Source: Diacronema lutheri
Taxonomy: Eukaryota > Haptophyta > Pavlovophyceae > Pavlovales > Pavlovaceae
Direction of reading: 5' to 3'
NCBI GenBank assembly: GCA_019448385.1
Contig: JAGTXO010000007.1
Span: 868,001-932,000, forward strand
Length of the DNA stretch: 64,000 nucleotides
Both the position numbers and the translations under genes were made by a program. Below, piece by piece: positions 29,421-55,863 of the stretch (position 1 is its first letter; each line of letters begins with the position of its first letter). The notes below the pieces were generated by a model. The model ran no database searches and was not told where the DNA came from. It saw nothing but the letters and a program-made list of their open reading frames with translations.

Positions 29421-29652
29421 CGGGCGCGGACGAGGTGCTGAGCGGCGTCACGTACGCGCCCTCGCTCGCCGAGCTCGACGCCGCGGCGCTGACGATGCGC
29501 GCGGCGTACCACACCGACCGCCCCTGAGACGATGCGCGGCGCCCGCGGAGGACTGGTCCGTTGGCGCGCAAACCGTGGGCGAAAGGGCGCGAAGCCAACG
29601 GCCGTCCGCGCACGTTCAAACGCGCGCATACGGGTGGCATCCTCCCACCTTC

Positions 29653-34100: not shown

Positions 34101-34206
34101 TGCGGTCACGGCTGAGGGGCGGATCCGACACGCCGTGGCCGTACAGCACATCGAGCAGGGAGGCCGTCACATCGACATGAATTTAAGTGCCACATCGAGC
34201 ACGTGA
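31095..34206 (+). pseudogene. PIF1-type SF1 DNA helicase with extra N-terminal domain, frame not continuous
   Basis: ATG at 31095 (the overlapping minus-strand gene starts here too). Residues 1-270 form an unrecognised domain (SYGPSRRALAFVSPPCVVDW; GSMFGTKWNVCGVMLLKR), possibly DNA-binding. Helicase motifs follow in order: Walker A APGGTGKTF (about 32,100), motif Ia ASSGVAATLLPDGRTFHLTF, motif II VVWDEAPM, motif III LLLAGDFRQCLPVV, and near 33,350 motif VI FTHGQLHVAASRVG. These lie in different frames, so the gene either has several introns or is decayed; I do not reconstruct it. A Pro/Ala-rich tail reaches the stop at 34206. PIF1-family helicases are common passengers of large eukaryotic transposons and giant viruses and may help strand separation during copying. 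Confidence 0.65.
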
Positions 34207-34479
34207 TACCCTGCGGACTGGCGCCACTCCTGCCGCCCCTCGCGCCGAGCCCGCGGCGCGCGCCGGGCAGTTGTTGCGCGCGCACGCAGCACGCAGCGCG
34301 CAGACAAGACGTGAAAAATGTGTCGCGGCGAGGACGAGGGCGAGCCCCGGCGGCTCGGCGAGGCGTCGCATCTCACACACACAGTGGCGCACTCCGAACG
34401 GCCCGGTCCACATTGCGCCCCCCCCCCCCCCCCCCCCCCCCCCCGCGCGCGCGGCTAGCCGACGCGCCGGCCTCTTGCT
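34207..34479. other. spacer with poly-C tract
   Basis: No gene. A C run of 25 bases sits at about 34,419-34,443. Confidence 0.5.
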
Positions 34480-35245
34480 CGCGGCTGTAGACCCGGGCGC
34501 TGAGGGCCTCGTACATGCCGGGTGGCCGAGGGACAGAAGCCCGTCTCGGTCACGCTCGTGCAGCGCAAGCGCACTGCGCACGCGCGGCACGCGACCGCGC
34601 GCGAGACGGGCCACCGTGCAGCGCATCGGCCCCCGTCGGCGCCGGGTGCGCCGGGCGGCCGCGCCCTATGCGGCGCGCGGCGTGGAGCACCGAGGGCGCA
34701 CGGTGCTGGAGGCCAACGAGCGGGTCAGCTTCACGCGCGCGCACACGCATGTGCGCACGCAGACGCGGCACGTGCACAACCCGCCCGCGCGGCTGAGCGC
34801 GCGGGCGGCGCGGCGACCTCAACTGGCGCGCGTGCACGCTCGCGGCGGCGCGGTTCGAGCGCGTGCATGCGACCGGGCGCGGGTTCCGGCCCGAGCAGCT
34901 GCTCGTTGTGTGCGGCAGCTGGCTGCACCGGTCGCGCGGCGGCGGCCGTGTGCGAGGCAAGCCGCCCGCGCTCGGTGAGGGGCTTGCTTTGGGCGCTGCG
35001 CCGGCTCGACATCGCGACGACCCTCGTACCCAAGCTGCGGAGATCCAACGGATGCTCGCAGCTGCGCGAGGTGAAGCGGAAGTGCGCCCGCTCCGAGCGC
35101 GACGCCCGCCGCGGACGCCGACGGCGCGCCGCTGGCCCGGCCGCGGCTGGCGGGCCGCGGCCGGTGCGGCGCGGCACCGGCACGCTGCAGCCGTACGTAC
35201 GCGCGCAGAGCGCCGGGCGGTCGCAGCGCGTGGCGGGTGGCGCGG
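34480..35245 (+). pseudogene. relic of a second Fanzor (TnpB-like) nuclease
   Basis: Scattered frames carry pieces in the same order as the intact Fanzor at 51-53.7 kb: AAVDPGAEGLVHAGW (RuvC-I region, here with the common DPG form), then LEANERVSFTRAHTH, then FRPEQLLVVCGSWLHRS (compare DRLLVCVGKWLRDH) and GLLWALRRLDIATTLVPKL (compare GLLRELRRRGVAAVFVPEP). No complete frame and no zinc ribbon remain. Divergence from the intact copy is large, so it is an old or different lineage. Homology is judged by eye only. Confidence 0.55.
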
Positions 35246-35247
35246 CG

Positions 35248-35720
35248 CGATGCCCGCGGCGGCAAGCGTGACTCAGCGCGGCAACGTCGGGAGTGGTGCA
35301 GGCGGCGTTGAAGCGAACGAGAAGGTGGACGCGGCGGCGATGAGCGGCCACGGCCACACCGGCGCGTCACGGCCGCCGCCTCCGTCGCCTCGCGCGCGGA
35401 AGCGCGCGCGGCCGGCGCGACGGACGACGGCAGGGGCGTCGGCCGTGGCGGGCGTCGTGGGCGCGCCGCGCGCCAGCCACGCCGGCCTAGCCGGGCCGTC
35501 GTCGGCGTCGTCGTCGTCGGCGGCCTCGTCGTCGTCGGCCGGAACGGCGGCGCACTCGGCGCGAAGGAGGCCGACGGCAGCGCCGGCGACGCGCGCGTGT
35601 TGCCGCCTGCCGACAAGCTCGTCGCGCCGTGCGAGCGCGGTGTCGCCGTGTCGCCCTCGGCGGGCGACGTGGCGTGCGGCGCACGCGACGTCGACGCGGC
35701 CGCTGCCGCACGGCGGAGCA
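35248..35720 (+). pseudogene. diverged partial copy of the 5' end of the megaprotein gene
   Basis: ATGCCCGCGGCGGCAAGCGT and what follows (MPAAASVTQRGNVGSGAGG...) parallels the intact start 825 bp downstream (MPMAASVTKGPGVGDGAGS...). Nucleotide similarity continues for roughly 350-450 bp (e.g. GGCGTCGGCCGTGGCGGGCG). A poly-G tract of about 30 bases (about 35,738-35,769) ends it. Together with the Fanzor relic just upstream, it looks like the tail and head of older element units. Confidence 0.6.
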
Positions 35721-35740
35721 GGCGTGGCTGGTGCGGGGGC

Positions 35741-35771
<31 letters not shown>

Positions 35772-36054
35772 GGTTGGGGGGTCGGTCGATAAGGTCGCTG
35801 GGGACAATCTCCCATCAGAAACTCCCGCTTAAACAGCCGCTAGGGCGGCCGCGTCCGGCACGCCCAGCGCCGCGACGAGCGCGATGCATTCCACGAGCGC
35901 AGTGGTACATCGCTCGCCGTGGGGCGCACCACGGGCCTTCTATAAATTTATGAGGCCAAGAGCGACGTCTTATCACACTTTCAAAAGCAGCGGATCAAAA
36001 GGCGTCTGCCAATCCGCCCGCGAGGACGACCGACGCGGACGACCAGCACGCGCG
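35721..36054. promoter_or_regulatory. upstream region of the megaprotein gene
   Basis: Contains the poly-G tract and, at 35,938-35,995, an AT-rich island (TTCTATAAATTTATGAGG, then CACTTTCAAAAGCAGCGG). TATAAATTTA about 115 bp above the ATG at 36055 is a plausible TATA-like core. Confidence 0.4.
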
Positions 36055-39000
36055 ATGGCGCAGGAGACGACCGGCTCGATGCCCATGGCGGCAAGCGTGA
36101 CCAAGGGCCCCGGCGTCGGAGATGGCGCAGGTAGCGACGAAGCAATCAAGGTGGAGGAAACGGCGAAGACGAGCGGCGACGGCTGCACCGGCACGCCTCC
36201 TCTGCGCCCGGCCGCGCGCGCGGCCGGCGCGGCGGACGACGGAGGGGCGGCGGTCGTGGCGGGCGTCGAGGGCGAGCGCGACGCACTCGCCAAGACGGGT
36301 GCCGGCGGCTGCGACGACGACGCTCGCGAGCCGCTGTCGGCCGGCAAGCCCGGCGCACTCGCCGCCGCGGCGACCGTCGGGGGTCTCGGCGAGCTCGTCG
36401 GCAGCCTATGCGCGTGGCTGGCGCACGGCGCGGCTGGTGGCGCCATCGCGGCCATCTCCCCCGGGACGGCCGCGCGCGGAGCAAACGGCACGCCGCAGCG
36501 CGCCGAGCCGCCGGCCGCCGGCGATCCCGTCGCTCCGCACGCGTGCGTCGCCGCTGCGGCGCCCTTGGCGGGCAGCGCGGCGGCGCCGTCGTCGGCCGCG
36601 CGCGACGCGCAGCGCGGCGTCGCGGGATTCGACGCGGCCGCGCACGCGCACGCGCGCGACGGCAGGCGGGCGGCACGGCGGATGCGCAAGCAAGAGGGGG
36701 CGGTGCACAGGGCCTTCCGCAAGTCCCTCTGGCGCGACGCGACGTTTGTCGAGTTCGTTGAGAAGCTGCGCCCCGACGGCAGCGCGCAGCTGCTCGCGCG
36801 CGAGCCCACGCGGCACGCGGCGGCGGTGCTGTGCGAGCTCGCGCGCGGCCGCGACGGCGCGAGCGGCGCGGCCGGGCTGCTGCACGAGATGAGAGCCGCC
36901 GATGCGCGCGCGCGCGAGGCCGCCAAAGCGGCGGAGGCAGCGCGGCTTGCGCACGGGACGCTGCGCATCGTGGCAACCGTGGCGCTGGGCGGTGCGGTCT
37001 TCGCCGGCATGTCAGCGCTGGTCGTTGCTTGCGCGGCGCGCACGGCGACCGGTGCGCTTTTTGGGGCCCGCCGCCCGCGGGCGGCCGCGCGCGGAGCCGA
37101 CGACGCGCTCGGCACGCTGCAGCGCGCCGAGCCGCCGCCCGCCGACAAGGGCAAGCGCAGGCGCGCCAGAGCCAACGACGACCCCGTCGACGCGGCGCGC
37201 AAGGCCGTGGGCAAGGCGGAGGGCAACTGCCGCAAGGCAGCCCGCCGGCTGCACCTCGCTGCACTGGGCGAGGAGGAGGCGCAGCAGCGCGTGCTCGACG
37301 CCGAGGCGGCGGAGCAGCTGGCGCGCTCGCGCGAGCCGGCCGGCGGCTGGGTAGGCAGCGCGCGCGCGCGCGCGCGCCCCGCCGCGCGCGCGCCCGTCGA
37401 TTGGCGTGCGCGCAGCGCAGAACGGCGCGCCAGCTCCGTCACCTGCGCGCCGCCGCGCCCGTGCCCCTCGCGCGCAGGGGCGCCCTGCGGACTTGCGGCT
37501 GCAACAGGCGCACTTTGGCATTCGCGAAGATGCCGACGCGGATGTGCGCCGCGCGCACGAGGCGCTGCGCCGGGCGAGACAGGGTGTGGCGTGCGCCAAG
37601 GCCAACGTGCGGCAGATGGAGGCGGCGTTGCTCAACGCGACGCGCTGCGCCACCGCGGTGCTCGCGCCGCGTGGCGTGCCGGAGGGTGACGAGCAGGCCG
37701 CGGCGAGAGAGCAGGCGGCGCTGGACCGGGAGGCGCCGCCGGCCGCGGAACGCGCGGCGCCGACGGCGCGTTCGCCCTCGGAGCTGCCGTCCGAGTGGGG
37801 CCCGCCAGCGGTCGGCCGGCGCCCGACGCCGCGTGCACTGTCGCACGCCGCGGGGTGCGGGGACGACAACCCGTTTGCGCCGCTCGCAACCGTCAGCGGT
37901 GATTGGTCGCCCACGCCGAGCTTGCGCCCGCCGTCCTCGCCGCCGCGGCAGCCGCCGTCCGACCGCCGCAGCGCGCAGCGTCGCAGCGCGCGCGCGCGGC
38001 CGCCGAGGCCGACCGTTTCACCCGAGGAAGCGCTCGCAGCCGAGCGCCAGGCGCGCGCGCTGTCGGAGCAGGCGGAGCAGAGGCGCGCCAAAAAGGCCGC
38101 CGCCAAGGCCGCGCGCCGCGCCGCGCGCGCCGCCGACAAGCGGACGGCGCGCGTCGTCCACGCGTGCGTAAGCGCCGCCTTGCAGCGCGTCTGCACGAGC
38201 GTCGCCACGGGCACGCCGCTCGCCGTGCTCCGCGAGCGCGCCGAGAGGCCGCGCGCGCCGAAGGCCGCGCCCGCGCCACCACGCCGCGCAGCGGACGGCG
38301 GCCGCGCGCTCCGCCACGCGCGCCGTGCGGCCGATGCGGCGGCGGAGCGCGAGGCGGCGGTGGCGGCCGACGCCGACGAGCGGTTCGAGCGGCAGCCCTC
38401 CGCCGCCCGGTTCGACGGCGGCGATGGCGGCGGAGGCGGCCACGTCGAGGCGAGCGCGCGACCGCGCGCCGGCGAGGCCGGCGAGGCTGGCGCGCACGGC
38501 GCGCCTGGCGCAGCGGGGCCCCCGGCGGCGTCGCTCGCGTCGCGCAGCCCGTGTGATGCGCGGCGCACGGCACGCCTCCCGCACGCACGCGCCGCAGCCA
38601 CCTACGCAGGCAACGGCGGCTGGGGTGGCAACGTCGGCGGCGACGTGTGCGGCGATTGTTTCGGCGGCGGCGGCGTCCGTCGCGACGCCTGCGGCGGCGG
38701 CGACGCCACCTGCGGCTGCGGCGATGGCGGCGTCGGTGCTGGCGCTGGCGAGGCCCCTGCACACGGTGCGCCGGCGCGCGCGACGGCGTCGCGCTTGCTG
38801 CGCTTGCTCGGCGCGCCACGCGCCGTGCTCGGTGCGATGGCGCACGCCGCGGCCGTGTTGGCGCGCGGCGTGGCCGCAGCCGTCGCTGGCGTGCGCGCCG
38901 CCGCGCGCGCCGTGCGGCGCGCGCGCCGCCGAGCGCCTTGCGCGCGCCGCACGGCTGCGCGGCGCGCTCGCAGCCCGCCGATGCGCGACGTCGACGGCGC

Positions 39001-42000
39001 CCTGCGGCCCTCACCGTCCTGGCCGCGCACACGCCTCGTCTGCGGCCGGCGCCTCGCGCCTCTGCGCCGCGCGGGCGCGCGCCCGCCGCCCGCACACGCC
39101 GCGCCGAGTTCCCGCGCGCGCGCTGCGCAACCCGACAGCGACGCGCCGGCGTGCGCGCCGCGGCGCTCGGCGCCTGTCGGTGCGCCGCCGCGCGCGCGTG
39201 GCCTGTGCGCGGCGCGCGCACGGCGCGTCCTCGACGTCGCCGGCCGCGCGGCGCGGAGCGCGCGCCTCGGCGCGCGCATCACGCGCCAGCGCACGCCGGG
39301 CCCGTCATCGGAGCCCTGCACGGCCGAGAGCGGCGACGGCGCGGGCGCCGGCGGCATCGGCGCGGCGGCGCCTGGCGCGGCGACGATGCGCGCCACCGGC
39401 GCGCGCGCAGCGCGCGCTGCGGCGGCGGCGGTCGGTGGCGCCTCGCGTCTCGCGCGCCGCGCGATGGCAAGCGCCGCCGCCGCTGCCACCTCCATAGCCG
39501 GCGCTGCCGCCTCCACCGTCGCCGCCGCCGCCGTTGCCATCGGCGCGGCCGTCACGTCACCGGCGTTCGCCGCGGCGCGTGGCATGGCGGCCGCATGCGT
39601 CGCTGCCTGCGCCCGCCCCACCGCCGCGCAGGCGGCCGCGTCGCGCGCGCTCGGCGCGCTCTTCGTGCTCGTCGACGCGGCCGACGCGGCGGGCGACAGC
39701 GACGCCGCGCTCGGCGCGCTCGCGGCCGCGGTCGACGCGACGGAGCTGCGCCCGCCGCCGGCCTTTTGGCGCGCGGGCCGCGCCGCGGCGTACGCACCGC
39801 GTCCGCCGCCCCTCAACTCGGCGCGGCCGCGCTACAACCGGCGCGCGCGCGCACCTAGCCCTCCCGTCGCGGCCGCGCCGCGCAATCTCGAGCGCGCGGT
39901 GCGCGAGCTCACGCGCGCCGCGCGCGCTGAGCGCGAGCGCGCGCCGGCGCCGCGCGGCGCGCGCGGCGGCGTGCTCCACGCGCTGCGCGCGTCGCTCCCC
40001 GTGCACGCGCGCGTTGCGCTCGGCACGGACGCGGAGCTGCGCGCGGACATTGCCGCGTTCGCGCGCGCGCGCCGCGAGCTGCACAGCTTCACCGACGCCG
40101 AGGTGGCGGCGCTCGCGCGCCCGGACGGGCCGCCGCTGCCCGTGCGGCTCGCGTGCACGGCGGTCGCGCGCGCGCGCGGCGTGACCGTGCTGCTCGACAT
40201 CGTGCCGCGCGGCGGCGGCGCACCCGAGCGGCTCGTGTGCCGCGCCCGTCGCCGCGGCGCCGCCACGCGCACGCCACGGCCGACAGCCGCCGTTATCGCG
40301 CGCGCGCCTTGCATAGCGGCGCGCGTTGGCCACACTGAGCCGGCGCGCGCGTGCGCGGGCGGACCGATCGGGGTCGTGCGCCTCCGTTCAGCGCGCCGCC
40401 GTTCTTGGCGTGGGGCGCGGCTCGACGTGCACACCCGCGAGCGGCTGGCCACACCGGTGCCATGCCACGTCGTGGCCTGCGCCGCCGCCTCGGCCATCGG
40501 CGCGTGCGTCGCTCGCGCGCGGCTTGGGCTTGCACGGCTGGCGCGCGCGTGGCCCTGCGCCTCCGCTCCACTAGCCACTGCTGCTGTCGCCTTCGCGCCT
40601 GCCGCCGACGGTGTTTTCCCCGCCGCACTAGCCGCTCCTGCATCCGCCTTCGCGCCTGCCGCCGATTTTCCCGCCCCACTAGTTGCTCCTGCATTCGCCT
40701 CCGCGCCTGCCACCACCGGCGTTTTCCCCGCGCCACTAGCCGCTCCCGCTGTCGCGTCCGCGCCTGCCGCCGCGGGCGTGTCTTCCGCCCCACTAGTCGC
40801 TGCCGCTGCCGCCCTCCAGGCCGCCTCCGACGGCGTTTTCCCCGCCCCACTAGTCGCTGCCGCTGCCGCCTTCCAGGCCGCCTCCGACGCCTTTTCCCCC
40901 GCTCCACTAGCCGCTGCCGCTGCCGCCCTCCAGGCCGCCTCCGACGGCGTTTTCCCCGCTCCACTAGCCGCTGCCGCTGCCGCCCTCCAGGCCGCCTCCG
41001 ACAGCGTTTTCCCCGCCCCACTAGTTGCTCCTGCATTCGCCTCCGCGCCTGCCACCACCGGCGTTTTCCCCGCGCCACTAGCCGCTCCCGCTGTCGCGTC
41101 CGCGCCTGCCGCCGCGGGCGTGTCTTCCGCCCCACTAGCCGCTCCTGCATCCGCCTTCGCGCCTGCCGCCGATTTTCCCGCCCCACTAGTTGCTCCTGCA
41201 TTCGCCTCCGCGCCTGCCACCACCGGCGTTTTCCCCGCGCCACTAGCCGCTGCCGCTGCCGCCCTCCAGGCCGCCTCCGACGGCGTTTTCCCCGCCCCAC
41301 TAGTCGCTGCCGCTGCCGCCCTCCAGGCCGCCTCCGACGGCGTTTTCCCCGCCCCACTAGTCGCTGCCGCTGCCGCCCTCCAGGCCGCCTCCGACGCCTT
41401 TTGCCCCGCTCCACTAGCCGCTGCCGCTGCCGCCCTCCAGGCCGCCTCCGACGGCGTTTTCCCCGCTCCACTAGCCGCTGCCGCTGCCGCCCTCCAGGCC
41501 GCCTCCGACAGCGTTTTCCCCGCCCCACTAGTTGCTCCTGCATTCGCCTCCGCGCCTGCCACCACCGGCGTTTTCCCCGCGCCACTAGCCGCTCCCGCTG
41601 TCGCGTCCGCGCCTGCCGCCGCGGGCGTGTCTTCCGCCCCACTAGCCGCTCCTGCATCCGCCTTCGCGCCTGCCGCCGATTTTCCCGCCCCACTAGTTGC
41701 TCCTGCATTCGCCTCCGCGCCTGCCACCACCGGCGTTTTCCCCGCGCCACTAGCCGCTGCCGCTGCCACCCTCCAGGCCGCCTCCGACGGCGTTTTCCCC
41801 GCCCCACTAGTCGCTGCCGCTGCCGCCCTCCAGGCCGCCTCCGACGGCGTTTTCCCCGCCCCACTAGTCGCTGCCGCTGCCGCCCTCCAGGCCGCCTCCG
41901 ACGCCTTTTGCCCCGCTCCACTAGCCGCTGCCGCTGCCGCCCTCCAGGCCGCCTCCGACGGCGTTTTCCCCGCGCCACTAGCCGCTGCCGCTGCCGCGTC

Positions 42001-43110
42001 CGCGCCCGCCGCCGCGGGCGCGTCTTCCGCCCCACCAGCCATCGCCGCCGCGCCCGCCGCCAACGCGCGCACCGCCAACGTGCCCGTTGCCAACGAGGCT
42101 ACCGCCACCGAACCAGCCGCCCTTGAGCTTCCCCTCCAACCCGCCAACTCGGCGCTGCTTGCGTGGGCGGGCGACGCGGCTGCGCGCCGGCTGGCCGCCG
42201 CCGCCGCGAGCGCCGGCCTCCCGCAGGCAGAGGTGGAGCGCATCGCCAGCGGCGACATGCTCGCCTCAACCGTCGACGCGTGCTGCGAGGTCGTGCTGCG
42301 CGTGCACGGGCAGGCCGGCGGCGGGCATGTCTGCCACGTGCCGCTCGCCGCGCAACCCGCGGTGTTTCAGGACGACGCCGAGCGCGCCGCGCTGCTGCAC
42401 CGCCTGCGCAGCGAGGCGACAACGCAGGCTGTCATCGGCGTGTGGAGCCCGTCGGACGAGCGCGGCGGCGCGGGCGGTGACGACGGCGCGCAGCTCGCCT
42501 CCGGCCATTTCACCGCGTTGCGCCTTGTGCGCGTCGCGCGCGCGGGCGAGCATCGCTACGACGCGGTGCTCGTCGACACGCTCGCGTCGCCCTGCAGGCA
42601 GGCGCTCATGCTCGCCAAGGCGATAACTGCCACGCTGCACGCGGCGGGTCTCGACATTTCGCGCGTGCGCCGCGCGCTGCTGCTCAACGAGGCGGCGCAG
42701 CGTGGCGCGACGTGCGGCCTCGCGATAGTGGGCGCGCTCAACGACGCGCTCGCCGCGGCGGGCTGCTCGTCCGCGCCGCGCACGTTCAGCGTGGCGGACA
42801 TGTACGCTGTCGGCGAGCGCCTCCGCGTCGCGCTGACCGGCGCGGCCAGCGATCGTGCGCCGGGCGGCGTCTGCGCGGTCACGAGCGCGGTGCGCGGCGG
42901 GGGCAGCCCCGATGGCGCCGAAACGCCGCCGCAGACGCGCGGCGCCAAGGCCGCCGCTGGCGTCACCGCCGCCGCCACCGCCGCCGCCACGCCGCCGCCG
43001 CCCGCGCTGGGCGCCGCCGCCGCCGCCACCGCCGCCGCCGCCGCTGCTGCCGCCGCCGTGGCCGCGCCGCCACCGCCGCCACCGCCGCCGCCGGCCGGCG
43101 ACGCGGGCGA

Positions 43111-43186
<76 letters not shown>

Positions 43187-46100
43187 GCCGCGCGCACGTT
43201 CTTGAAGCTCGCGCCCAGGGCGCGCGCGGCCGCCTCGGCGCGTGAGGCGTTGCGCGCCGCGTGTGCGCGCGCGGACGCGGCGGCGTCGTCACACGCGTCG
43301 GCGCCGCACGCGCCCGCCGGTGCGCGCCGCCGGCGGCGCGCGGGCGCAGGCGAGCTGGCGCTCGCGGCTGCGCGCGCGCTCGCCTCGACGGAGCACGGCG
43401 ATTTGACGGACGACGCGCTCGAGGCCGCCGTCGAGCAGGAGCTGGGCGACGAGCGCGGCCAACTGCTGCTGTGCACGCGGGGCGCAGCGGCGCAAAGGCC
43501 CGCGCTTTGCCGGCTCCTGAAGCACGCGTGCGCGTCGGCGCGCGCGGCGAAGCGCGCGCAATTCACGGTGTTCGTCGTGCGCGCGGCCACGCGCGGCGAG
43601 CGGGGGGGCGCCGCCGCGAGGCGCGTGGACTCGGTGGTCGAGCTGTCGTGCGCGCTGCACGAGAAGGCGGGCGCGCTCGGCGGCCTCCAGCGCGTCTGTG
43701 TGCGTGGCTTCGCCCTCGAGCGCCGCCGGACACTCGACGCTGGCGCCGAGGCCGGCGCGTCCGCCATCGGCCAGGACGAGCAGGTCGAGGCAGAGGCGGG
43801 CGAGGCGTGCGTCGCCGGCGTGACGATGGCCAAGCAGCTGCGTCAGTTTGCCGAGCAAGCTGCCCGCGACGACGTGCTCTTCCACGTCGCCGTGTCCGAG
43901 GCCGACGCCCACGCCCGGCTGGCGCGCGTTGCGGGTGACGATGTCGGCGCGTACAGCGTCGTGCTCGCAGTCGCCGGGCTCGTCTGGCTGGCCAAGGCCG
44001 ACGAGGTTGCGCCGGCGGCCGCCCAGCCCGCCGCCGTGCCGCCCGCCGCCCCGCCTGCTGCCGCCACGTCCGCCGACGCCGAGCGCGACGCCTCGCCTTC
44101 CGACCGCCTGCGCGCGCTGACGCTCGCCGTGCGAGTCGCGCTCGCGCGCGGCGTGCTGCGCCACCTCCTCGCCGACGCGTCGCCGGGCGCGTCCGCGACC
44201 GCTGGCGGTAGTTGCGCGACGCCCGTCGAGGCGGCCACGTCCGCCGCCGCGCCGCCCGCCACGGGCGTCGTGACGAGTGGCGTTGCGGCGGGCGCTGTGG
44301 CGGCCGCACCGGCTGCTGCGGGCGGTGCGATGGCGGGTGCATCGCCCATCACGCGGCCGGCGAAGCGCGCGCGGCGCACGCTCACCGCCGCTCCAGCCGC
44401 CTCGGCCGTTGCGGCCGCTGGAGGCGCACGCGCGGGCGCACGCGGCGCGGCCGGCGCGCCTCGCGCGCGCGCCGCGCGCGCGCCGGCCGAGTACGTCTGG
44501 CTTGCCATCGCGCGCCGGATGCTGGCGGCGCGACACGCGGCGGCCGCGGGCGGCGACTTTGTCGCGTCGTGCGTCGCCGCGATGCAGGCCGAGTACGGCG
44601 ACGGCTGTGCCGTCGTCGTCGGCGACGCGCCTGATGACGCCTTGGTCGAGGCTGCGGCGGCGGCGCTGCTCGAGGGCAAGCACGCGGCGGTGAGCCTCGG
44701 CTGCGTCGACCGGCCGGCGGTGCTCGTCGTGCAGCGCGCCGTGGACGCGCCCACGTCGCGCGTGCACGGGTGGTGCGCGCACGCGGCGGGCGCCGCCGAG
44801 TTTGACGAGGGCGCCGCGCACGGCGTGTTCAACGCGATCGTCGAGCGCGCGTGGGCGCTGCGTCCGGACCCGGCCGACGGCAGCCCGCCGCCCACGCGCA
44901 CGTGGGAGGTCGAGCAAATCGCTGGCGACGCGCCCGACCAGGCGGGCGTGGCCGCGCTGCGCGTGCTCTACGCGCTCGTCGCGGCGCACGGCCGCTACCG
45001 CTCGGCCGCCGCGCTCTTTGGCGCGCTCGCGCAGCTGCACGCGCCCGACGCCGCCGGCGCGCGCGCGGAGGTCGTCGCGGCGGCGTGCGCGGTGCCGCCC
45101 GGCGCGCGGCCGGGCGCCGCGCCGGCGGCCGCGCGGGACGACGCGAGGGAGCGCGCATGGGACGGCGCTCAGATCGCCGCGCTCGCCGTCGGCGCGGACG
45201 CTGCGCGCAGGCGTGTCGCGCCCGTGCGCGCGCTCGTCGACGCGCTCGGCACGCCACCGACCTCGGCGATCACGGGCGGGCCGGCGGTCCGGCTCGCGGG
45301 CGCGGGCGACGGCGGCCACGGTGCACGGTGGGTGGGCGGGCAGGCGGCGACGCCCGCCGAGCAGCTGCCGAGGGAGCTGCTGCGCGCCTACCACGAGGCG
45401 GTGCTGTGCGTCACGCCCGGCAGCCTCCAGCTCGGCCCGGCGGCGCTCGACGCGGTCACGCGGCCGCGCGAAAACGACACGCTGGAAGGCCTCCTCGCGC
45501 GCGTCAGCTGGCAGTGCGGCGCGAGGGCGAGCACGTGCGCCATGCTCGCCACGTTTTCCGAGCAGGCGGGCACCGGCTCGCGCGTCGCGCTCAAGGCCCT
45601 CCGCACGAGCTCCGACCTGGCCGGGCTGACGGCGGCTGCGGTCGGGCAGCAGGCGCCGCAGACGCCGCCGCCGCCGCTTCTCGTGATGCTCGGCCGCTGC
45701 CCCAGCCCGCTCGTCGGCGGCGGCCTCTTCCCGCCCGACCGCGCGACGGGCGAGCCGGCGGTGCACGCGGCGACGTCCGAGCTCGCCGTCGAGCTGCTGC
45801 GCGACGCGCGCGCGCTGGCCGGCACGGACGGGCGGCTCGTCGTGCTGTGCCTCGAGGCGTCCAACCCGCTCTGGTTCTGCCCCAAGGTGCGCGAGCTCGA
45901 GCTGCCGCGGACGCGGTCGGACGGCGTGCGCGCGTCCGGCTGCACCTGCCCTGCGACGTGCAGCGATGCGCGCGGCGCGGCGGGTGGCGCTGCCCGCGGC
46001 GCATCGACGCGGCCGGCGGCGCGCGCGATCAACAAGGCGGTGCTCGACCACTTCGTCGCGCTTTTCGGCCGCGAGGGCTTCGCGACCTTTGAGTTTGCGG

Positions 46101-49100
46101 GCGGCGGCGAGGCGAGCTGGCTGTGCGACAGCGCGGCCGGCACGACGACCGTCGCGGCGTGCGCGTCGCTGCCGCCGCGCATGGGCGATGGGCAGCTGGC
46201 CATCCGGCGGCACACGCTCGGCACGGGCGCCGACGCGCCGGCGCACGCCGTCGTCTCGCTCCGCGTCGCGCACGTGAGCCACGCCATCCGCCGCGCGGCG
46301 GACGACGGCGGCGCGCGCGCCGAGCGGATGGCGCGCGCCGCGCGCGCGTTCTGCGATGTGGCGGCCGCGCTGCGCGTCGACGCGATCCTGGCGGAGGTGC
46401 CCGAGGACCGCCCGACGGGCACGCCCTTCCTTGGCGGGCTGCTCAAATGTTGGGACAAACGCAACGGGAGCTGGACGGCGCCAGCCACGCTCGCGCTCGG
46501 AGACGTGCGCGAGGTGGCCAAGCGGACGGCCGACGCAGCGGCCGGCCGAGCGGACGAGGTCCCTGCGGCTGGCCGTCCGCAGGTCGCGGCGCGCGCGTGC
46601 GCTGGCGCGATTGGCGGCGGCGCGGGCGCGGCGGGCGCCTCGGACGCTGCGCCGCGTGCACTGGCGGGCGCGTCGGGTGCGCGCACGGACGGCGGCCCTG
46701 CCGACGCACCGCGCCAGCTGGAGAGCCGCTACGGCGAGGCGAGCAAGCTCGACCTACCCCAAGATTCCACTACGGGCCGCGTCCTCGACGCTCGCGAGGC
46801 CCAGGACCGCGCGCGCGTGCCTGCTGCGCCCGACGGCACAGCGCTGCGCCGCGTGCTCGACGCCGTCGGCGCGGGCGCGCCCGCGCAGCGCAGCCCGCGC
46901 TGGCACGACGAGCGATGGGAGGAGGTCACGGGCAGCAAGGTTGGCGACGTCGTGAACGACAACGCCGGCGTCGCGCACGAGACGCTCACCGACGAGTACG
47001 TGCACCGGCGGCGGCGCGAGGTGCGGACCAAGGCGACGACCGCGGGCATCCTCGGCGAGGCCGTCGCGCTGCGCAAGCTGGCGGCCGCGTACGGCATCAC
47101 CGTCGTGTGCAACCTGCCGATGGTGCGTGCGGACCCGCACGACAAGAGCGCGCCGTTCGCCTTCTCGCCGGACGGGCTCGCCATCCTCCCCGAAAACAAC
47201 GAGCAGGTCCTCGTCGAGGTGAAGACGCTCACCAAGGCGGGCGCCACGGCGCACGAGGACGGGCCGCCGCAGCCGCACCGCGATCAGCTGCAGCTCGGCA
47301 TGCACGTCCTCGGCGTGAGCAAAGCGCTCTACGTGCAGTACCTCAGGCACGAGGACCGGATCGTCGTGCACGTCGTGACGCGCGGCGCCGGCTGGCTTGC
47401 ATTCGCGCAGCCGAGGGTGCAGGCCTTCTGGGCGCGCGTCGTCGAGCGGCGCGCGCGGCTCGAGCGCGCGCGCGCCGACCACCCGGCTGCGAGCCGGCGG
47501 CACCGGCGGCAGCAGACGCCGGCCGGGCCGCCGCTCGTGCTCGCGCTGGACGGGCGCATCCCCGCCGCGCGCGCCGCCGCGCTGCACGCCGTCGCGCACG
47601 GCACCGCGAGCGCGGCGGCGGTGACGGCGGCGGCGGCGACGGGCGACGCGACGGCGTTGCAAGACGCGATCGCGGCGCTGCGCGCGCCCGTCGGCAATGC
47701 GGCGATCGACAGCGCAGCGCGTGCGGAGCGCGCGGCCGTCGAGCGGGCGATCGCGTACCTCGGGCAGCCGGCAGGCGACGCCGCCGCCCGCGGCACGGCC
47801 GAGGCGGCCGAGGAGGAGAGGACGGTCGACGCCGACATCTGCGCGTTGCTGCACCAGCTCGGCGCGAGCGTGGCGCACGTGCACGTCGAGGACGCGGATT
47901 GCGTCACGCGTGAGCACTGGGGCGGGGCGGTGCTCGCTGCAGCGGGCGACCCGTCGAGCGCCCCCGCCATTTCGAGCGTCATCGTCGCGCACATCGTGCG
48001 CCTCGCCGGCTTTGGCGTCGAGCTCCCGCAGTCGATTCGCGTCGCCCCCAGCACGGCCGACTGGCACGAGGGCTGGCTCGACGTGCAGTGCGTGCTGCTG
48101 CGCACGCGCCGGCGCGGGCGGCGCGACGACGACTTTGTGGCCGTCGTCAGGCGCGGTGGGCGCTGGTTTGCGTGCGAGCCCGGCCGCGCGCGGCGGCTGC
48201 AGTGGCGGTCGGTCCTGCGCCGCGCGCGCGGCGGCGTCGACGGGACCGGCGAGGAGGCGTTCGCGGTCGTCTACGTGCGGCGCGGCGACGCGGCCGGCGA
48301 CGCGGCTGGCGACGCGCAGGCCGAACGGGCGCGCGGCGGGCGCGCGCGCAGGCGCACGCGCGGCGGCACGCGCAAGCGCAAGCGCGGCGCCTCCGCCGGG
48401 CTCGAGGCGGCCGCGCCCGCCGGCGCGCCGGCGGGCGCTGCTCACCGCCCGCCCGCCAGGCGTGCCACGGTCGCCGCGCGCACCACGCGCTCTGTGACCG
48501 ACGCGCGGCACTCGGCGCCTGCCGCCACGGTTGCACCTGTCTTCGACTGGCGCGCCGGCCGCCCGCCCCCTGCCGCCGCCGCCGCCGCCAAGCGCGGCCA
48601 GGCGCTCGAGCCGGGGCAGTTCGCGCGGCCGCGTGGGCGCGCGCCATGGGGCAAGGTCTGGGACAGAGTCTCGGGTGCGTGGGCGGACAAGCCGACTGGT
48701 GCTGCCGTCGCCGCCGCGCCGCCGCCGCTGCCGCCCGCCGCCGCGCCGCCGCCCGCCGCCGCGCCGCCGCCCACCGCCGCGCCGCCGCCCGCCGCCGCGC
48801 CGCCGCCCGCCGTCGCGCCGCCGCCCGCCGCCGCGCCGCCGCCGCCGCCGCCACCGGCGGCGCTCGGCCGCCGGCAGCACGTCGGCGCGGGCGGCAGCGC
48901 GGCGGGCCGGCGGCTCGCGGCCATCGCACGGCGGCAGCGCGGCGTGCGCGCGCCGCCGCCCGCCGCGCGCTTCCTCGCCACGCTGCCGCCACCGCCACGC
49001 GACGGCCTCGCGCGCACGAGCAAGCAGGCGCGCGCGAGGCGCAACGCGGACGGACGGCCGGCGCACGCGCGCGCGGCCAACGCGCGCGCCTTCTACCGCG

Positions 49101-52100
49101 GCGTGGAGCTCGGCGTGCACGCGACGCGCGCCATCGTCGACGCGCGCCACGCCGACCTGCCGCAGGCCGTCTTCGTGGCGGAGGCGCGGGCGATCGTCGC
49201 GCGCTCCGCCGGCGGCGGCGCGCTGCTCGCGCCGGACGACGTGCGCGACCTGTGCGACGCGCAGACGGACGCCGATCGCGCTGCGATCTGGGCGTCGGTG
49301 GGCGCGCACGAGGCGACGCGCATCTTCGCGCTCGTCACGCGCAACGCGAGCTTGGCGGGCGCGGCGCTACTCGTGCTGCACACGCCGGCGGGCGCGCCGG
49401 CGCGCGCGCTCGGGCTCGTGGCGACGCGCTCGCGCGCGCCGTCGACGGGCGCGCCGCGCGACGCGCACAGGGCGCTGGTGCAGCGGTTGGACGTGCTGAT
49501 GGACGCGATCGCCGCGGCGCGAGGCGCGTCGCCGCTCGAGCTCGAGCTCGCGCTCGCGCCCGAGCCGCAGAGCGCGTGCAACGCGCGTGCGGCCGCGCTG
49601 CTCTGCCTGCAGGCCGTCGCGGACGCGAGCGGCCGTCCCGCCGCTGAGGACGCGCTGGCCGCGCTCGACGACGCGCGCGGCATCGACCGGCACTGCCACG
49701 CCGTCCGGCAGCAGATCGAGGCGAAACTCGCGTGGCGGCGCGCCGACGGCGCCGTCGGCGTTGACGGCGCCGACGGCGCGCCCGCGCTCGCGCCTGCCGC
49801 CGCACCGCCGGCGTGCGCGCCGGCGCACGCTGCCGGCGAGGCGGCGGTCGACCAGGCGATCGTCACGCGGGTGCGCGACGCGCTGCGCGCGTGGGCGACG
49901 ACTGGCACCGCGCCCAGCGCGGCGGTGCTCGACGACGCCTGCGCCGCGTACACGGCCCGCGCACGCGCGCGCAAGGACGCGCGCACGGCGCTGGGCCCGA
50001 CGCGCGCGGCCGAGCTGCTCGCCGCGGCCGCGCGCGGCGGAGCCGACGGGGCGGATGCCGCGCGCGCGCTGCTCGGCGGCACGCCGCGCCTGCTCGTCGT
50101 GCTCCTCTGCGTGCCCGTCGCCGCGCCGTCCGGCGAGCCGCCGCGCCCGGTCGGGCTGCTCGTCGCCGACCGGCCGACGGACGACTCGCGCCCGGCCGCG
50201 CTCGTGCGCTACGACTTTGCGCCGCTCGACGCGGACGTGGCCGTCGCGGTCGGCGCGCATGCCGTCGCGCTGGCCAGTGCGATCTGGCCGCTGCTCGCGG
50301 CCGAGGGGGAGCCGCGGCCATCGCCCGTCGTGCGCTCGCAGCCGCGCGGCGGCGACGATGGCGCGCGTGCGCTCGCAACGTTCGCGTGCCTCGACGCGCT
50401 GATGACCGCCAGCGTCGGCGCGCACGGCCTCGCGGGCGGCGCGGGCATGCTGCCCGCGCTGGTCGCGCGAGGCGCCGCGGCCGCCCAGCGCGAGCGGCAG
50501 CTGCGCGCGGCCGCCGAGAGGCTGGGCGGCACGGTCGCTGGGTGGCCGGACACGGGCGCGAGCGCGGCGGGCGCGAGCGTCGACGAGGAGGCGCGCACGT
50601 ACGAGGTCGAGGCGGTCGTCGACGAGCGCCGCAAGGCGGGCAAGAAGGTGACGTTCCAGTTCCGGATCAGGTGGCGGGGCTACGACGAGAGCGCCGACAC
50701 GTGGGAGCCTGAGGCCAACGTGAGCAGCGACCTCGTCGCCCAGTTCCGCAAGACGCGCGACGAGCAGAAGCGGCGCGCGGGCGTATCGGGCAGCGGCAGC
50801 GGCGGCGCGGGCGCGGCGTCGGCATTGGCGTCGGCGCCGCTTCGCGCGCACGGCGAGTCGGGCGCCGCGGGCAAGCGCGCCGCGGCGGGTGCCGCCGCGA
50901 GCGCGCGCGACGCCGCGGGCGCGCGCGCGCCGAGCGTTCCCCGCGCGCGCGGCGTCGAGCGCGCGCGCGTGGACGAGCCCGCTGCGCCGAGCGCGCGCGC
51001 CGCCGGCGGCGCGACGGCGCGCACGCGCGTCAGCGTGCTCCCGGGCTTCGTGGTCAAGCGCTCGACGCTCAACGCGGGGCCGCAGGCGGTGACGGCGCAG
51101 CCCGGTGCGCGGAAGGAGCTGCGGCGCATCGCGGCGGCCGTGCACAGGCTCACGACACAGGCGTACCGCGTCATCAACAAGGTGGTGCGCGACGAGGCTG
51201 CGGTGGCGAGCGCGCAGGCCGTCGGCGCGGCGTCGGGCGGCCCGTCGACCAGCGTGCACACGTCGACCACGATGGACAAGGGAACCGTCCGTGCGATCTT
51301 CTCGGCCATCGGCTGGCACAAGGACGAGAGCACGTACGGTGCAGCGCCCCGAGGCAAGCCCGCCGAGCAAGCCGCCGCGCAGACCAAGGCGGCGACGGCG
51401 CGCGCCGTCGGCGAGATGGCCGAGGGCGTCCAGCCCGTCTGCGCGGTGGGCCTCACGGAGATCCTCGAGGCGGAGGCGACGCAGGTGTCCACCGCGTGCC
51501 TGATGCATCCATCGCGCGTCGTGAACGGGCTGCTCCGCGACGTCGTCCGCGCGGCAGTCGAGCGCGACGAGGCGCTCGTCGCGCTGCCCGAGATGCAGCG
51601 AAACGCGCGCGTGCGCGAGCTGTGCGAGCGGCTGCTGCGCGGCGACGTGGAGGGCGCGCGCGTCGGCTGCCCCGCCGCGCTCGACCGCCACCTGCCCGAC
51701 ATGGTCCTCCACAAGATCGACTACAAGTGCACGCCCACGAAAAGGTGGAACTACGACCGGCACACGACGCGCTACTTCCTCGTGCAGATCCGCACCCTGC
51801 AGCACGTGGCCGAGGGGCAGGCGCTGCTCTGCCGGCTCGCGCACATCCACACGCAGCTGACCGGACGGCCGCCGCGGTACAATGTGGCGCCGCTGCGCAC
51901 GCACAATGTGCGCGCGAGGCGTGGCTGCCGCTGCCGCCGCCGAGCGCCCAAGCGCGCGCGCCGCCGCCGTGCGCGCCGCCCCGCGGCCAGGTTGGTCACG
52001 CGCCCGCGCGCTCGCGCGCCGCGCGCTGCGCGCAGGTGCCGCGCAACGTGCGCCTCGCCGCGAGCGCCATCTGGGTGACGCTTTCGGATGACGAGCGCAA

Positions 52101-53760
52101 GGAGCTGCGCGCGCGGCTCAAGGCGCTGGACCTGCGCGACCACGATGGCGAGCCGATCAAGTGGACAGGCACAAACGGCAACACCCCGCCGATGTCGGAC
52201 GTGCGCGTCAGGTACGCGGTCTTTGCGACGCGCTTCGACATCTCCAACCGCGTCTTCGACTACGCCGGGCGCGAGCGGCCGCCGGCCGATCTGCCGTGGC
52301 ACGCGCGGCGCTCGTGGGTTGGCCTCGCGCCGCTGCCGCGCGTGCCGCTCCCGGGCCGGCAGCCCGTCAAGTCGGTGGTGACAGATGGCGTCGCCGTGCA
52401 CGCCGTCGGGACCGTCCTCGTGCCGAAGGCGCAGGCGCCGGCCGGCGGCTCGGGCGTCCTGCACCGCTGGCGCCGGCCGGACGGGCGCATCGCCGTCGCG
52501 CTCGGCTCCGAGCTGCGGCGGGCGATCGACGTCGAGGCGGCGGTCGTCGTCGCGGCCGACCCGAACATGGGCAACATCACCACCTACTCTGCGCACGTCG
52601 GGCGGGCGGCCGTCTGGCGGCAGTTCACGCAGCGCGCGCGCGCGCGCGCCGCGGGCTTTGCGCGCGAGACGGCCAAGACCAACGCGGCGCGGCGGCGCGT
52701 GCGCAAGGACGGGCGCGGCGAGGAGTTCAGCGTGGAGGCGGACGAGGCGCGGCTTGGCGAGGCGCACAGCGCCAAGGTGCTCGGCGAGGGCGAGTTCCAC
52801 GCCTTCCACCGCGAGAGCGCGCGGGTGCGCGAGCGCGCCGCCGAGCACGTGTACGACGCGCCGGCGCGCCGGAAGGAGCGCTGGCGGCGCGACAGCGGCG
52901 GGCGGTCCAACGCGGCGCGCGTCGCCGAGGCGCTCATCGCGGCGCACTGTGTCGACGGCGTGACGCGCGACCGGCTGCTCGTGTGCGTGGGCAAGTGGCT
53001 GCGCGACCACAAGGGCGCGCAGCCCAAGGGCGCGCCGCCCGCCTTCCAGGTGGGGCTGCTGCGCGAGCTGCGGCGGCGCGGCGTCGCGGCCGTCTTCGTG
53101 CCCGAGCCGTACACGTCGATGCACTGCTCGATGCCGCGGCTCGCCAAGGGCGGCAGGCTGCAGCGCTGCGGCGCGGAGCTCGCGCAGAACCCGCGCCTGC
53201 CCGTGGCAAAGGGCGGCACGCGCACGGTGCACGCGCTCGTCATCTGCCCGGCGTGCAACGGCGGCAAGAAGCCCGTGCACCGCGACTACAACGCCGCGCG
53301 CAACATCTTCTACGACGTGCACGACATGGCGGCGCACGCGGCCGGGCGCGACACCACGTCGACGCCTGAGCGCTTTGCCCTCGTGCTCGCCTGGTGGGCG
53401 CGCGGCGAGGTGTGGGAGCGTGAGGAGCGCATGGTGCACGGCGAGGGCGACGACTGCGACGACGAGTGCGACGGCGACGACGAGGGCGACGACGAGGGCG
53501 ACGACGACGACGACGACGATGGCAGCGGCGACGGCGGCGGCGGCGAGGGCGACGGCGACGGCGACGGCGACGGAGGCGGCGGCGGCGACGACGACGATGA
53601 CGGCGGGGGAGGCGGCGGCGGCGACGGCGGTGGCGACGACGGCGGCGGGCGCGGCGGCGGTGGCGGCGGCGGCTCTCGCGCCCGCACCCCCGCCCGCGGA
53701 GCTGCCAGCGCCAGTGCCGGCGGCGGCAGCGCGCGCGGGCCGAAGCGCGGCCGGCGTTGA
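36055..53760 (+). CDS. 5,816-aa megaprotein: Ulp1-like protease, YqaJ nuclease, chromodomain, Fanzor nuclease
   Basis: Three exons kept in frame: 36055-37350, 37478-51907, 52036-53760 (introns of 127 and 128 bp; donors GTAGGC and GTGCGCGCG; acceptors CGCGCAG). Order: Ala/Arg-rich N-terminus with two hydrophobic stretches; 19-residue repeats (about 1460-1945); Ulp1/C48-like protease (about 1985-2220) with GHFTAL (His), VDTL (Asp) and QRGATCG (Gln, Cys); poly-Ala; further degenerate protease-like units; YqaJ-type PD-(D/E)XK nuclease (about 3555-3765) with GILGEAV, SPDGL, VEVKT and QLQLGMHV; Pro-rich linker; chromodomain (about 4806-4858; FQFRIRWRGYDESADTWEPE); Fanzor (about 4955-5700) with RuvC Asp in AADPNMG, Glu in VPEPYTS, Asp in VHRDYNAARNI and zinc-ribbon CPAC. 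The usual first CxxC of the ribbon reads HCSMP, so one cysteine is missing. The tail is Asp/Gly-rich. Self-cleavage by the protease is possible. Ends and reading are seen; functions are from families. Confidence 0.75.
40585..42035. repeat. 57-bp coding minisatellite with 507-bp higher-order period
   Basis: About 25 units encode variants of FPAPLVAAAAALQAASDGV (19 residues). Several unit types (e.g. one containing TTGCTCCTGCATTCGCCTCC at 40,683, 41,024, 41,190, 41,530 and 41,697) recur with alternating spacings of about 341 and 166 bp, i.e. a 507-bp block present nearly three times. Every unit keeps the frame. It lies just before the protease domain. Confidence 0.9.
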
Positions 53761-54190
53761 CGCACGGCCGAGCCGCGCAGCGGTCGACGCTTTGCGGGCT
53801 CTGCCCAGGTCGCGCGCGGCTGGCGACGCGAGCCGCGCGCGGCACGACCGTGCACGCCGCCACCCGTGGCCGAGCGCGCCGCACCAGCCGGCCCGCTCCA
53901 ACCGCCGTGCGGATCACGGACGCTCGCTACGGCTCGTCGGCGCGCGTCACCTGCGCCGGCGGCCACGGCGCCGTCTGCTCCGGCCTCGTCGCGAGCAGCC
54001 CGACCGCTGCTCGCCGCCCGCACGCCGCCGCAGCAACGCTGCGCGTCGTGCTCCCCCGCTCGCCAAACGCGAAGAGCTCCCTCACAAGGACGTCCTTCCG
54101 AACGGCCCGCGCTGCACTCGGGGCGCGATCGTGCCCCTGATCGGATTTGGCTTGACCATCTATACGATTCCATGTCGACGTGTGCGATCT
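53761..54190. other. 3' region of the transposon, candidate guide-RNA region
   Basis: 430 bp between the Fanzor stop and the right subterminal repeats, without a supported protein. In known Fanzor and TnpB loci the guide (omega) RNA is made from the nuclease gene's 3' end and the adjoining element end, so this is where one would be expected. Nothing in the sequence itself proves it. Confidence 0.3.
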
Positions 54191-54300: not shown

Positions 54301-55863
54301 ATGGAGCCGACGTCGTGCGTGCCGATCGGCGCGACGGGCGACTACTTTTTGGAGCTTGATTGCGACAAGTCGGGCGCGGGCGGGCTGATCGCGCTCGCAG
54401 ACACGAGCTTTCGCATGTATTTGTACGATTGCACCACGCTGCGCCTCGTCGCGCATGCCGCGCATGCGCACGCGGATCGGATCCGCTGCGTGCGTCATGC
54501 GCGGCTCGGCTCAGCGGCCGCCGTCCTGAGCGCATCGGACGATGGGCGCGTGCGCGCGTGGGATCCGAGGCAGGGCCTGAGCTATCCGGCGCTCGAGCTC
54601 TCGGCCCGCCCGGACGGTGCGCTCGCCGAGCCGGACGACGCCGACGGCGCCGGGCTGTTTGCAACGGATGCGGACGCCTCCGGCACGCTCGTGTGCGCGG
54701 GCGGCGAGGCGCGCGTGCTTCTTTGGGACGTTCGCATGGCGGCGGCGCGCGCGGGCGCGCTGCACACGTATGACGAGGTGCACACCGAGGCGTGCACGTC
54801 CGCCCGCTTCCACGCCGGCCAGCCGTCGCGCCTCGTGACCGGCTCGGTCGACGGCCTCCTCTGTCTGCTCGACGGGACCAAGGATGGCGGCGACGACGAG
54901 CTGGTGCGCGCGGTCTGCAACGCGGGCGACGCAGTCGTGCGCGCCGGCGCGTTCGACGGCTGGGGCGCCGGTCCGGCCGATGACGGACTACACGCCTACT
55001 GCGTGAGCGGCACGGAGGTGGTGAGCGTGTGGGCGCTCGAGTCCGGGGTGCGACGCGCGAGCTGGGAGCGCATCTGCGCGCCAGGCGGCTCAAGCGCGAC
55101 GGTGGAAGCCGACGCGCTCGACGGCGACGACGCGGACGATGCCTTCGCCGGCGCGGCCGCTGCGCGCGCCGATCCCGGCGCGCTCGACGACGGCGACGGC
55201 GCCGGCGTGGCGCGCGGCGCGGCGTACGTGGTTGACTGTCTCGTCGCCGGCGCCGGCGCGCGCGCGCCGGCCGGGGCTGCGCCCACACCGGCGGCGTCGT
55301 CGCTCGGCGTCGTCGCCGGCACGCACGCGGGCGAGGTGCACGTCCTTGCGCTTCCGCACGCCGCAGGCTCGCAGCCCGCGCCCTGCGTGGTCCTGCGCGC
55401 CGGCGGCGCGGCGCGCGCCGGACACCGCTTGACGGTCCGGGCATGCGCGTGGGCGGAGGAGGCGGGCCAGCTGTTCACGATCGGCGAGGACGGGCTGCTC
55501 TGCTGCTGGCGCGCCGAGCGGTTGCTCGACGCGCGCGCCAACGCGCACGCCGCGCGTCTCGAGGAGGCGGCGGACGCGGCGAAGACCAACGAGGACGCGT
55601 CGCGCCGCGCCGGAAACGGGCGTGCCGCGCGCGCCGGTCATGTGCGCGTCTCGTCGCGCGACGGGCTCGAGACCGCACGGCGCGCGGTCGCGCGCGCACG
55701 GCCGCACGGCGTGGCCGCGCGCAGGGCCAAGGCGGCGTCGGCCCTCCTTGCAACCTTTGACCCGGCATACGTCCGATGGGTCGCGGTGACGCGCGCGGCG
55801 GCGCGCGTGCACTGGCTGGCGCGCGTGCGCGCGTGCCACTTCCGCCGAAGTAGCGACGAGTAA
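54301..55863 (+). CDS. WD40 repeat protein, WDR89-like
   Basis: 520 residues, single exon. WD repeats are visible as AVLSASDDGRVRAWDPRQG, GTLVCAGGEARVLLWDVRMA, HTEACTSARFH then RLVTGSVDGLLCLLDG, YCVSGTEVVSVWALESG and a late GQLFTIGEDGLLCCWRAE. The segment order and the LLCLLDG...VRAVCNAGD passage resemble WDR89, a poorly characterised propeller; the assignment is by eye. A helical, Arg-rich C-terminus follows (about residues 410-520). Its ATG is only 15 bp beyond the transposon's target duplication, so the element separates it from its original upstream DNA; the 5' leader reads GAAAAAAAGGCGACG. Confidence 0.75.
   Translation: MEPTSCVPIGATGDYFLELDCDKSGAGGLIALADTSFRMYLYDCTTLRLVAHAAHAHADRIRCVRHARLGSAAAVLSASDDGRVRAWDPRQGLSYPALELSARPDGALAEPDDADGAGLFATDADASGTLVCAGGEARVLLWDVRMAAARAGALHTYDEVHTEACTSARFHAGQPSRLVTGSVDGLLCLLDGTKDGGDDELVRAVCNAGDAVVRAGAFDGWGAGPADDGLHAYCVSGTEVVSVWALESGVRRASWERICAPGGSSATVEADALDGDDADDAFAGAAAARADPGALDDGDGAGVARGAAYVVDCLVAGAGARAPAGAAPTPAASSLGVVAGTHAGEVHVLALPHAAGSQPAPCVVLRAGGAARAGHRLTVRACAWAEEAGQLFTIGEDGLLCCWRAERLLDARANAHAARLEEAADAAKTNEDASRRAGNGRAARAGHVRVSSRDGLETARRAVARARPHGVAARRAKAASALLATFDPAYVRWVAVTRAAARVHWLARVRACHFRRSSDE

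Follow-up and report, generated by a model that had tools for sequence, protein, structure and literature searches.

Fanzors have been described as RNA-guided nucleases (PMC10432273, available part of the text), and Bao and Jurka reported them from Helitron2 transposons and from viruses (2013; PMC3627910, likewise in its available part). In brown algae, the accessible portion of PMC12477816 describes giant DNA transposons (KDZ, EnSpm and Sola-1) that range from >10 to >30 kb, and it also describes giant algal families that carry only genes lacking homology to transposases. We analyzed a window of 64,000 nucleotides from the haptophyte Diacronema lutheri (contig JAGTXO010000007.1, positions 868,001 to 932,000 of the forward strand; G000:C5:868001-932000 of a genome that totals 43,492,796 bases on 103 contigs), to which all positions below refer unless a contig or locus is named. 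An earlier note on this DNA had proposed that positions 36055 to 53760 encode a single protein fusing a Ulp1-like protease, a YqaJ nuclease, a chromodomain and a Fanzor. Our analysis adds the 26.5-kb repeat in which this frame lies, its ends, a PIF1 helicase, the copy number and a long form, and indicates that the repeat is probably a young, very large DNA transposon of this pavlovophyte alga, encoding a PIF1-like helicase and a giant RecE/chromodomain/Fanzor polyprotein.

The short form of the element, 26.5 kb, spans positions 27653 to 54165 (+), starting with CTATATACGGCGCGG and ending with GGCTTGACCATCTATAC, and the alignment of copies stops at both of these positions. The left end reads CTATATACGG and the right end GACCATCTATAC; the copy on C9 (1127562-1158604) differs slightly at its right end. 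The 31 left and 33 right flanks that we collected all differed from one another, though several touch the same kinds of short repeat. The copies share the ends at 27653 and 54165 and differ in their flanks; this is a dispersed, fixed-ended, high-copy element, evidently repeated and mobile.

Domain places were counted as scored places, that is, the best 150 of longer first-look candidate lists, in which a copy truncated at a contig break could be entered twice. For the nuclease domain, 150 places were scored of 236 first-look candidates, and all were at least 98% identical. No internal stop occurred in 148 of the 150, the surrounding frames were at least 4,000 codons long in 104 and at least 4,400 in 88, and the nuclease-bearing frames sum to 4.2% of the genome. 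Among 150 chromodomain matches scored of 260 candidates, 146 scored like that of the element (for 102 of these the surrounding frame was 4,000 codons or longer) and four belonged, by score, to other proteins. The search with the TNB domain of the Fanzor gave 148 matches among 150 scored of 306 candidates, more than half of them with the window's own score. At the 23 nuclease places on four contigs, the chromodomain followed the nuclease at a fixed spacing in at least 19, and the TNB domain was present as well in at least 11.

The copies fall into forms of different length. A long form of ~31 kb seems to be commoner than the short form: its own sequence had 175 first-look candidates, of which 40 of 40 scored at 100%, and of the 40 candidates scored for the sequence specific to the short form, 17 matched at 98-100%. 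The long-form copy on C9 carries an extra gene resembling ubiquitin hydrolases, i.e., ubiquitin proteases (UCH, E 1.5e-6). Even shorter copies were found on C28 (~12.7 kb) and C27 (21.6 kb), and a relative on C49 was 84-94% identical and internally deleted. Nine copies were free of stops in the codon segments compared, and the spread of the element looks recent. A dN/dS test for selection was set aside, with too few differences among the copies and ratios from 0 to above 1.

The giant open frame itself (37355 to 52075, +, frame 2) runs for 4,907 codons without a stop, and the other five frames contain 19 to 58 stops each over the same interval. In 200 simulations of like composition under a dinucleotide (first-order) null, the longest frame had a mean of 794 and a maximum of 1,347 codons. 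When the frame was divided into 20 blocks of 250 codons, GC content was highest at the third codon position in 18 of them, and the two others were tandem-repeat blocks. The long frame is real, as the earlier note had held. Its end requires a stop in that frame, so that one chain would be the product if there were no splicing. In the short form, an N-terminal exon lies at 36055 to about 37400 (+; end by reading) in frame 1, which is open from 35833 to 37686. This start is specific to the short form, to which the proposal of a start at 36055 is thus confined; the long-form copy read (C9) has a different and longer N-terminus of the giant protein. Within the frame, a tandem repeat with a period of 57 bp (40563 to 42040, +) varies in length among copies. 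The C-terminal part continues in frame 1 (50713-53757), to which a candidate GT-AG intron of 128 nt (51908 to 52035, +), one of several possible splices, would lead, and the protein ends with an acidic and glycine-rich tail and a stop (53431 to 53760, +). Such a splice shifts the frame, and the intron is not in-frame as the earlier note had it. The Fanzor, the chromodomain and the nuclease are in one stop-free frame apart from this last splice, and a single polypeptide that contains all three is the likely predicted product.

The nuclease domain occupies 46877 to 47452 (+) and matched PHROG 434, a family of RecE-like recombination exonucleases, over 192 residues (E 5.8e-17), which settles its identity and bears out the YqaJ nuclease of the earlier note. 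The Pfam YqaJ profile (E 0.034 in the whole protein and 6.6e-4 in a cut-out) and the NCBIfam model TIGR03033 (E 3.3e-5) remained below their cut-offs; a D...ExK string can be read within the domain. These profile data confirm a RecE/lambda-exonuclease (YqaJ) domain in the giant frame. A chromodomain at 50600 to 50752 (+) is likewise confirmed by its profile, the Pfam Chromo match (E 6.3e-12) scoring 45.7 bits against a cut-off of 25.1. The outcome was different for the SUMO-type, self-processing protease. A Ulp1-like motif string in the order H-D-Q-C can be read at 42503 to 42724 (+), but Peptidase_C48 had no match in the proteins of the element or in the cut-out segment; it matched at nine places genome-wide, none in the window's copy. 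A model of the segment gave no fold match at E ≤ 0.001, and its pLDDT of 43.6 was too poor to judge. An internal repeat of Ulp1-like segments was also considered and rejected (BLASTP among six segments, best E 0.17). The assignment of a Ulp1 protease is not supported by profile or model; the joining of the other three domains in one frame is supported.

The Fanzor comprises a probable N-terminal part (51035 to 51907, +, frame 2, by sequence reading) and a part with the RuvC nuclease and zinc ribbon (52036 to 53430, +, frame 1), within which the TNB domain (53068-53307, +) matched PF07282, Cas12f1-like_TNB, with 28.0 bits against a cut-off of 26.3 (E 2.4e-6). When the Fanzor was aligned with two further families found in this genome (alignment A1), D172, E354 and D414, which we take to be the catalytic residues of RuvC, were invariant, and the ribbon cysteines were kept. 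Furthermore, when solved structures were searched, a profile of the three families found Spizellomyces punctatus Fanzor 1 at 7.5e-8. A Fanzor C-terminal domain in the predicted giant protein is thereby confirmed from sequence. The 405 nt of non-coding DNA that follow (53761 to 54165, +) are a candidate site for a Fanzor guide RNA. The last 301 bp of the element were 100% identical in all 40 copies scored of 280 first-look candidates, and the left end was conserved too; the RNA fold of the last 300 nt had a z score of only -1.46. The second Fanzor family, at ~149.3-155 kb of G000:C1 (L061, L002) with ~14 further matches of like score, had a stronger TNB match (up to 43.9 bits), is apparently stand-alone and has a glycine-rich N-terminal stretch. 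The third (L082:559-4794, -, G000:C86) has an open frame of 1,412 codons with an N-terminal half rich in alanine and glycine.

Upstream of the giant frame, on the same strand, motifs of a PIF1-like helicase (Pfam PIF1, E 1.4e-23 and 6.9e-13; Pif1_2B, E 3.7e-12) are present at 32031 to 33121 (+), distributed over at least two frames, with an N-terminal part that is open from 31023. The interval 31630-33470 has no insertion or deletion relative to the window in the copies C9+, C4+, C10- and C5- and contains gaps in C34-. The scatter of the motifs over frames may be due to introns or to decay. The Pfam scans took in part of the frames of the 37-54 kb portion and of the left 3 kb, together with two further frames of L021 and three of window 30700-36100; for the forward frames of the C9 copy they covered L021 3400-9999 and L022 1-1200 only. 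In the frames scanned, no match was found to a reverse transcriptase, a tyrosine recombinase, a Helitron Rep, a DDE transposase, a capsid, a polymerase or packaging genes, and three reverse-strand open reading frames at the left end had no Pfam match. A convincing HUH context was not seen, nor was a YxxK-type partner in a stop-free stretch. Genome-wide, Helitron_like_N matched once, on contig C63, and Phage_integrase at 16 tyrosine-recombinase-like places, as against 150 or more copies of the element. Two recombinase-like matches (G000:C69:95472-95945, + and G000:C17:194914-195378, +) each have the right end of a copy 23-27 kb downstream of them on the same strand, and may be internal to two copies of the element.

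No terminal inverted repeats were found at the ends of the element, nor was any target-site duplication found between the left and right flanks of copies for which both were read. A candidate pair of asymmetric terminal inverted repeats was rejected at chance level (153/500). A perfect palindrome of 18 nt, GTACGACCCGGGTCGTAC, lies at 27700 to 27717 near the left end, and a hairpin of 18 nt, GGGGCGCGATCGTGCCCC, at 54120 to 54137, 28 nt from the right end. Because such hairpins are common across the element, beginning in 30% of its 100-bp bins, one near each end is not telling, and the last 100 nt, folded as DNA, did no better than shuffled sequences (z -0.08). The left part also contains nested inverted repeats with arms 95-99% complementary (29652 to 30523), which were found beside copy L061 as well. 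In the flanks, A or T stood at position -3 in 24 of 31 left flanks (p 5e-6) and G at +1 in 21 of 33 right flanks (p 5e-5), out of 18 positions examined; a fixed T-T or A-T target was not found. Several insertions stood where a short repeat containing CGTTA or CGTTAGT ends (left flanks, e.g. L091, L098, L104 and L109), and this repeat may be a favoured target. At a paralogous empty site, L090 (83% identical), the flanks are joined without a duplication and without CTATA. Taken with the flank pairs, this one imperfect empty site partly shows that insertion occurs without target duplication. An open frame with WD40 repeats (54301-55860, +) begins ~135 bp past the right end, which places the insertion in the window directly upstream of a likely host gene.

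Elements of the IS200/IS605 'peel and paste' group have no inverted repeats, make no duplication, and carry subterminal hairpins and TnpB. The D. lutheri element is like those with TnpB in these respects, its Fanzor being the TnpB homologue, but unlike them it is 26-31 kb in size and showed no recognised HUH TnpA and no fixed target motif. As in Helitrons a PIF1 helicase is present, but the Rep (HUH) domain was not found, and neither were insertion between A-T or T-T nor the 5'-TC/CTRR-3' or 5'-T ends of those elements. The two hallmarks of DDE cut-and-paste transposons, terminal inverted repeats and target duplication, are likewise absent from the copies read. The nuclease resembles phage exonucleases of the RecE/lambda type (YqaJ) in its PHROG 434 match and in the D...ExK reading, but unlike theirs it would be part of a polyprotein in a eukaryotic element. 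As in the Fanzor1-bearing eukaryotic transposons of PMC3627910, the Fanzor is inside a mobile element, and as in Helitron2 there is no target duplication at full-length ends; Ulp1, YqaJ and protease are not mentioned in the available part of that text. In size, high copy number, extra genes and kept nested insertions, the element is like the brown-algal giants, which belong to DDE superfamilies (PMC12477816, accessible portion), whereas in D. lutheri we found neither a transposase nor inverted repeats or a duplication.

Relatives were scarce outside this genome. In a search of 5.8 billion proteins, with at most 8,000 best candidates scored, the Fanzor part had one near-identical protein only, the helicase N-terminus only an identical one, and the region around YqaJ no relative (1,179 scored). 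Viral contigs contained no relative save two short matches close to the common TnpB end, which cover only 42 and about 78 residues. These searches are weak evidence that the element is rare, the coverage of eukaryotes in the collections being ungauged. In titles and the beginnings of abstracts on Fanzor or TnpB together with a chromodomain, YqaJ/RecE, PIF1, a protease or haptophytes, no such element was described. The words Ulp1, chromodomain, YqaJ and helicase are absent from the text of PMC10711439, as is 'transpos' from the available part of the D. lutheri genome paper (PMC8379373).

Two side observations concern the locus and the assembly. At window positions 17082-19441 a 12-bp repeat (TGGGCGGCGGGC) recurs nearly 200 times, with a strong strand skew. 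Telomere-like repeats differ among contigs of this one genome (CCCTAA, CCCTTA and CCCCTA at the contig starts and ends L062-L081). The element breaks many contigs of the assembly, and several stop exactly at its 3' end. Telomere capping by the element was considered and dropped after 20 contig ends, the starts of C1 and C6 and the ends of C14 and C32 had been examined. Some contig ends carry telomere-like repeats and others are broken inside or at the end of the element, and assembly breakage was therefore taken as the cause.

How the element moves can be read in several ways. A serious rival to an autonomous transposon is a giant non-autonomous one, whose genes are passengers and which is moved by its ends through an unrelated enzyme encoded elsewhere. 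This is possible, though we consider it doubtful. It would agree with the failure to recognise a transposase in the frames scanned, with the PIF1 motifs in different frames, with the giant algal families that carry only genes without transposase homology (PMC12477816, accessible portion), and with the 16 tyrosine-recombinase-like places and the single Helitron Rep place in the genome. However, a frame of at least 4,000 codons persists at 104 of the 150 scored places, which very recent spread would explain too, and there are no inverted repeats or duplications such as a DDE transposase leaves. A Helitron2-like rolling-circle element, with a Rep that was lost or diverged beyond recognition, is distinctly improbable: the PIF1 helicase, the missing target duplication, the hairpin near each end and the occurrence of Fanzors in Helitron2 (PMC3627910, available part) would suit it, but Helitron_like_N was confined to one place, an HUH context was not convincing and a YxxK-type partner in a stop-free stretch was missing, the asymmetric inverted repeats were at chance level and no fixed T-T or A-T target was found.

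The large size of the element also recalls an endogenised virus or a Polinton-like element. Large DNA viruses are known to possess nucleases of the RecE type, helicases and Fanzors. Fanzors were reported from viruses in the available part of PMC3627910 as well; nevertheless, with neither capsid nor polymerase nor packaging genes matched by Pfam in the frames scanned, and no relative among viral contigs beyond the two short matches, a viral origin is very unlikely. A host mega-gene, or a chance open frame in DNA of 75-80% GC, can practically be dismissed. Stops are few in GC-rich DNA, and 46-69% of the giant protein, block by block, consists of A, G, P and R, but the frame has 4,907 codons against a null maximum of 1,347, giant frames are found at many places, and the copy number already contradicts this explanation.

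Several points weigh against the reading as a young transposon that encodes a helicase and a giant polyprotein. As the copies read yielded no recognisable transposase or recombinase, autonomy can only be presumed, and the 16 tyrosine-recombinase-like places could act in trans. The PIF1 motifs are spread over several frames and are perhaps decayed. The single polypeptide is a prediction from the frame and a candidate splice, and the guide RNA is a candidate from its position at the 3' end. The copies are too alike for dN/dS, and their codon counts follow the window's frame, which would hide frameshifts. No TAM-like fixed motif precedes the left end in the 31 left flanks. Of the empty sites, the best one, L090, is only a paralogue in which a 5-nt gap lies two bases away from the junction, the second, L089, differs around the junction, and those for the C4 copy (9299-40369), which adjoins short repeats, are ambiguous.

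The earlier note had read the protein as a copying machine, which is plausible, and had proposed that the chromodomain could guide insertion and that the nuclease could resect the cuts of the Fanzor; we infer each mechanistic step. Of the enzymes and domains concerned, those of the RecE type degrade 5' ends, PIF1 helicases separate DNA strands and chromodomains recognise methylated histone tails. The likeliest mechanism, though a tentative one, is a replicative route of copying based on homology or on single strands. A guide RNA from the 3' end of the element would direct cutting by the Fanzor, the RecE-type 5'-3' exonuclease would resect the break, the PIF1-like helicase would open the donor, and the chromodomain would hold the complex on marked chromatin. 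Joining would fall to a domain of the giant protein that is so far unrecognised. Somewhat less likely still is that the transposon stands for a novel class of mobile elements in eukaryotes: the polyprotein itself would be the mobility engine, and RNA-guided cutting with resection-driven copying would work with no classical transposase and no target duplication.

It is an open question why Fanzors are retained by the transposons of eukaryotes. In the D. lutheri element the Fanzor is no loose passenger, since it has its frame in common with a recombination exonuclease and a reader of histone marks. This shared frame, together with the roughly 150 or more near-identical places at which the element is found, makes the role of RNA-guided cutting in the spread of the element directly testable.

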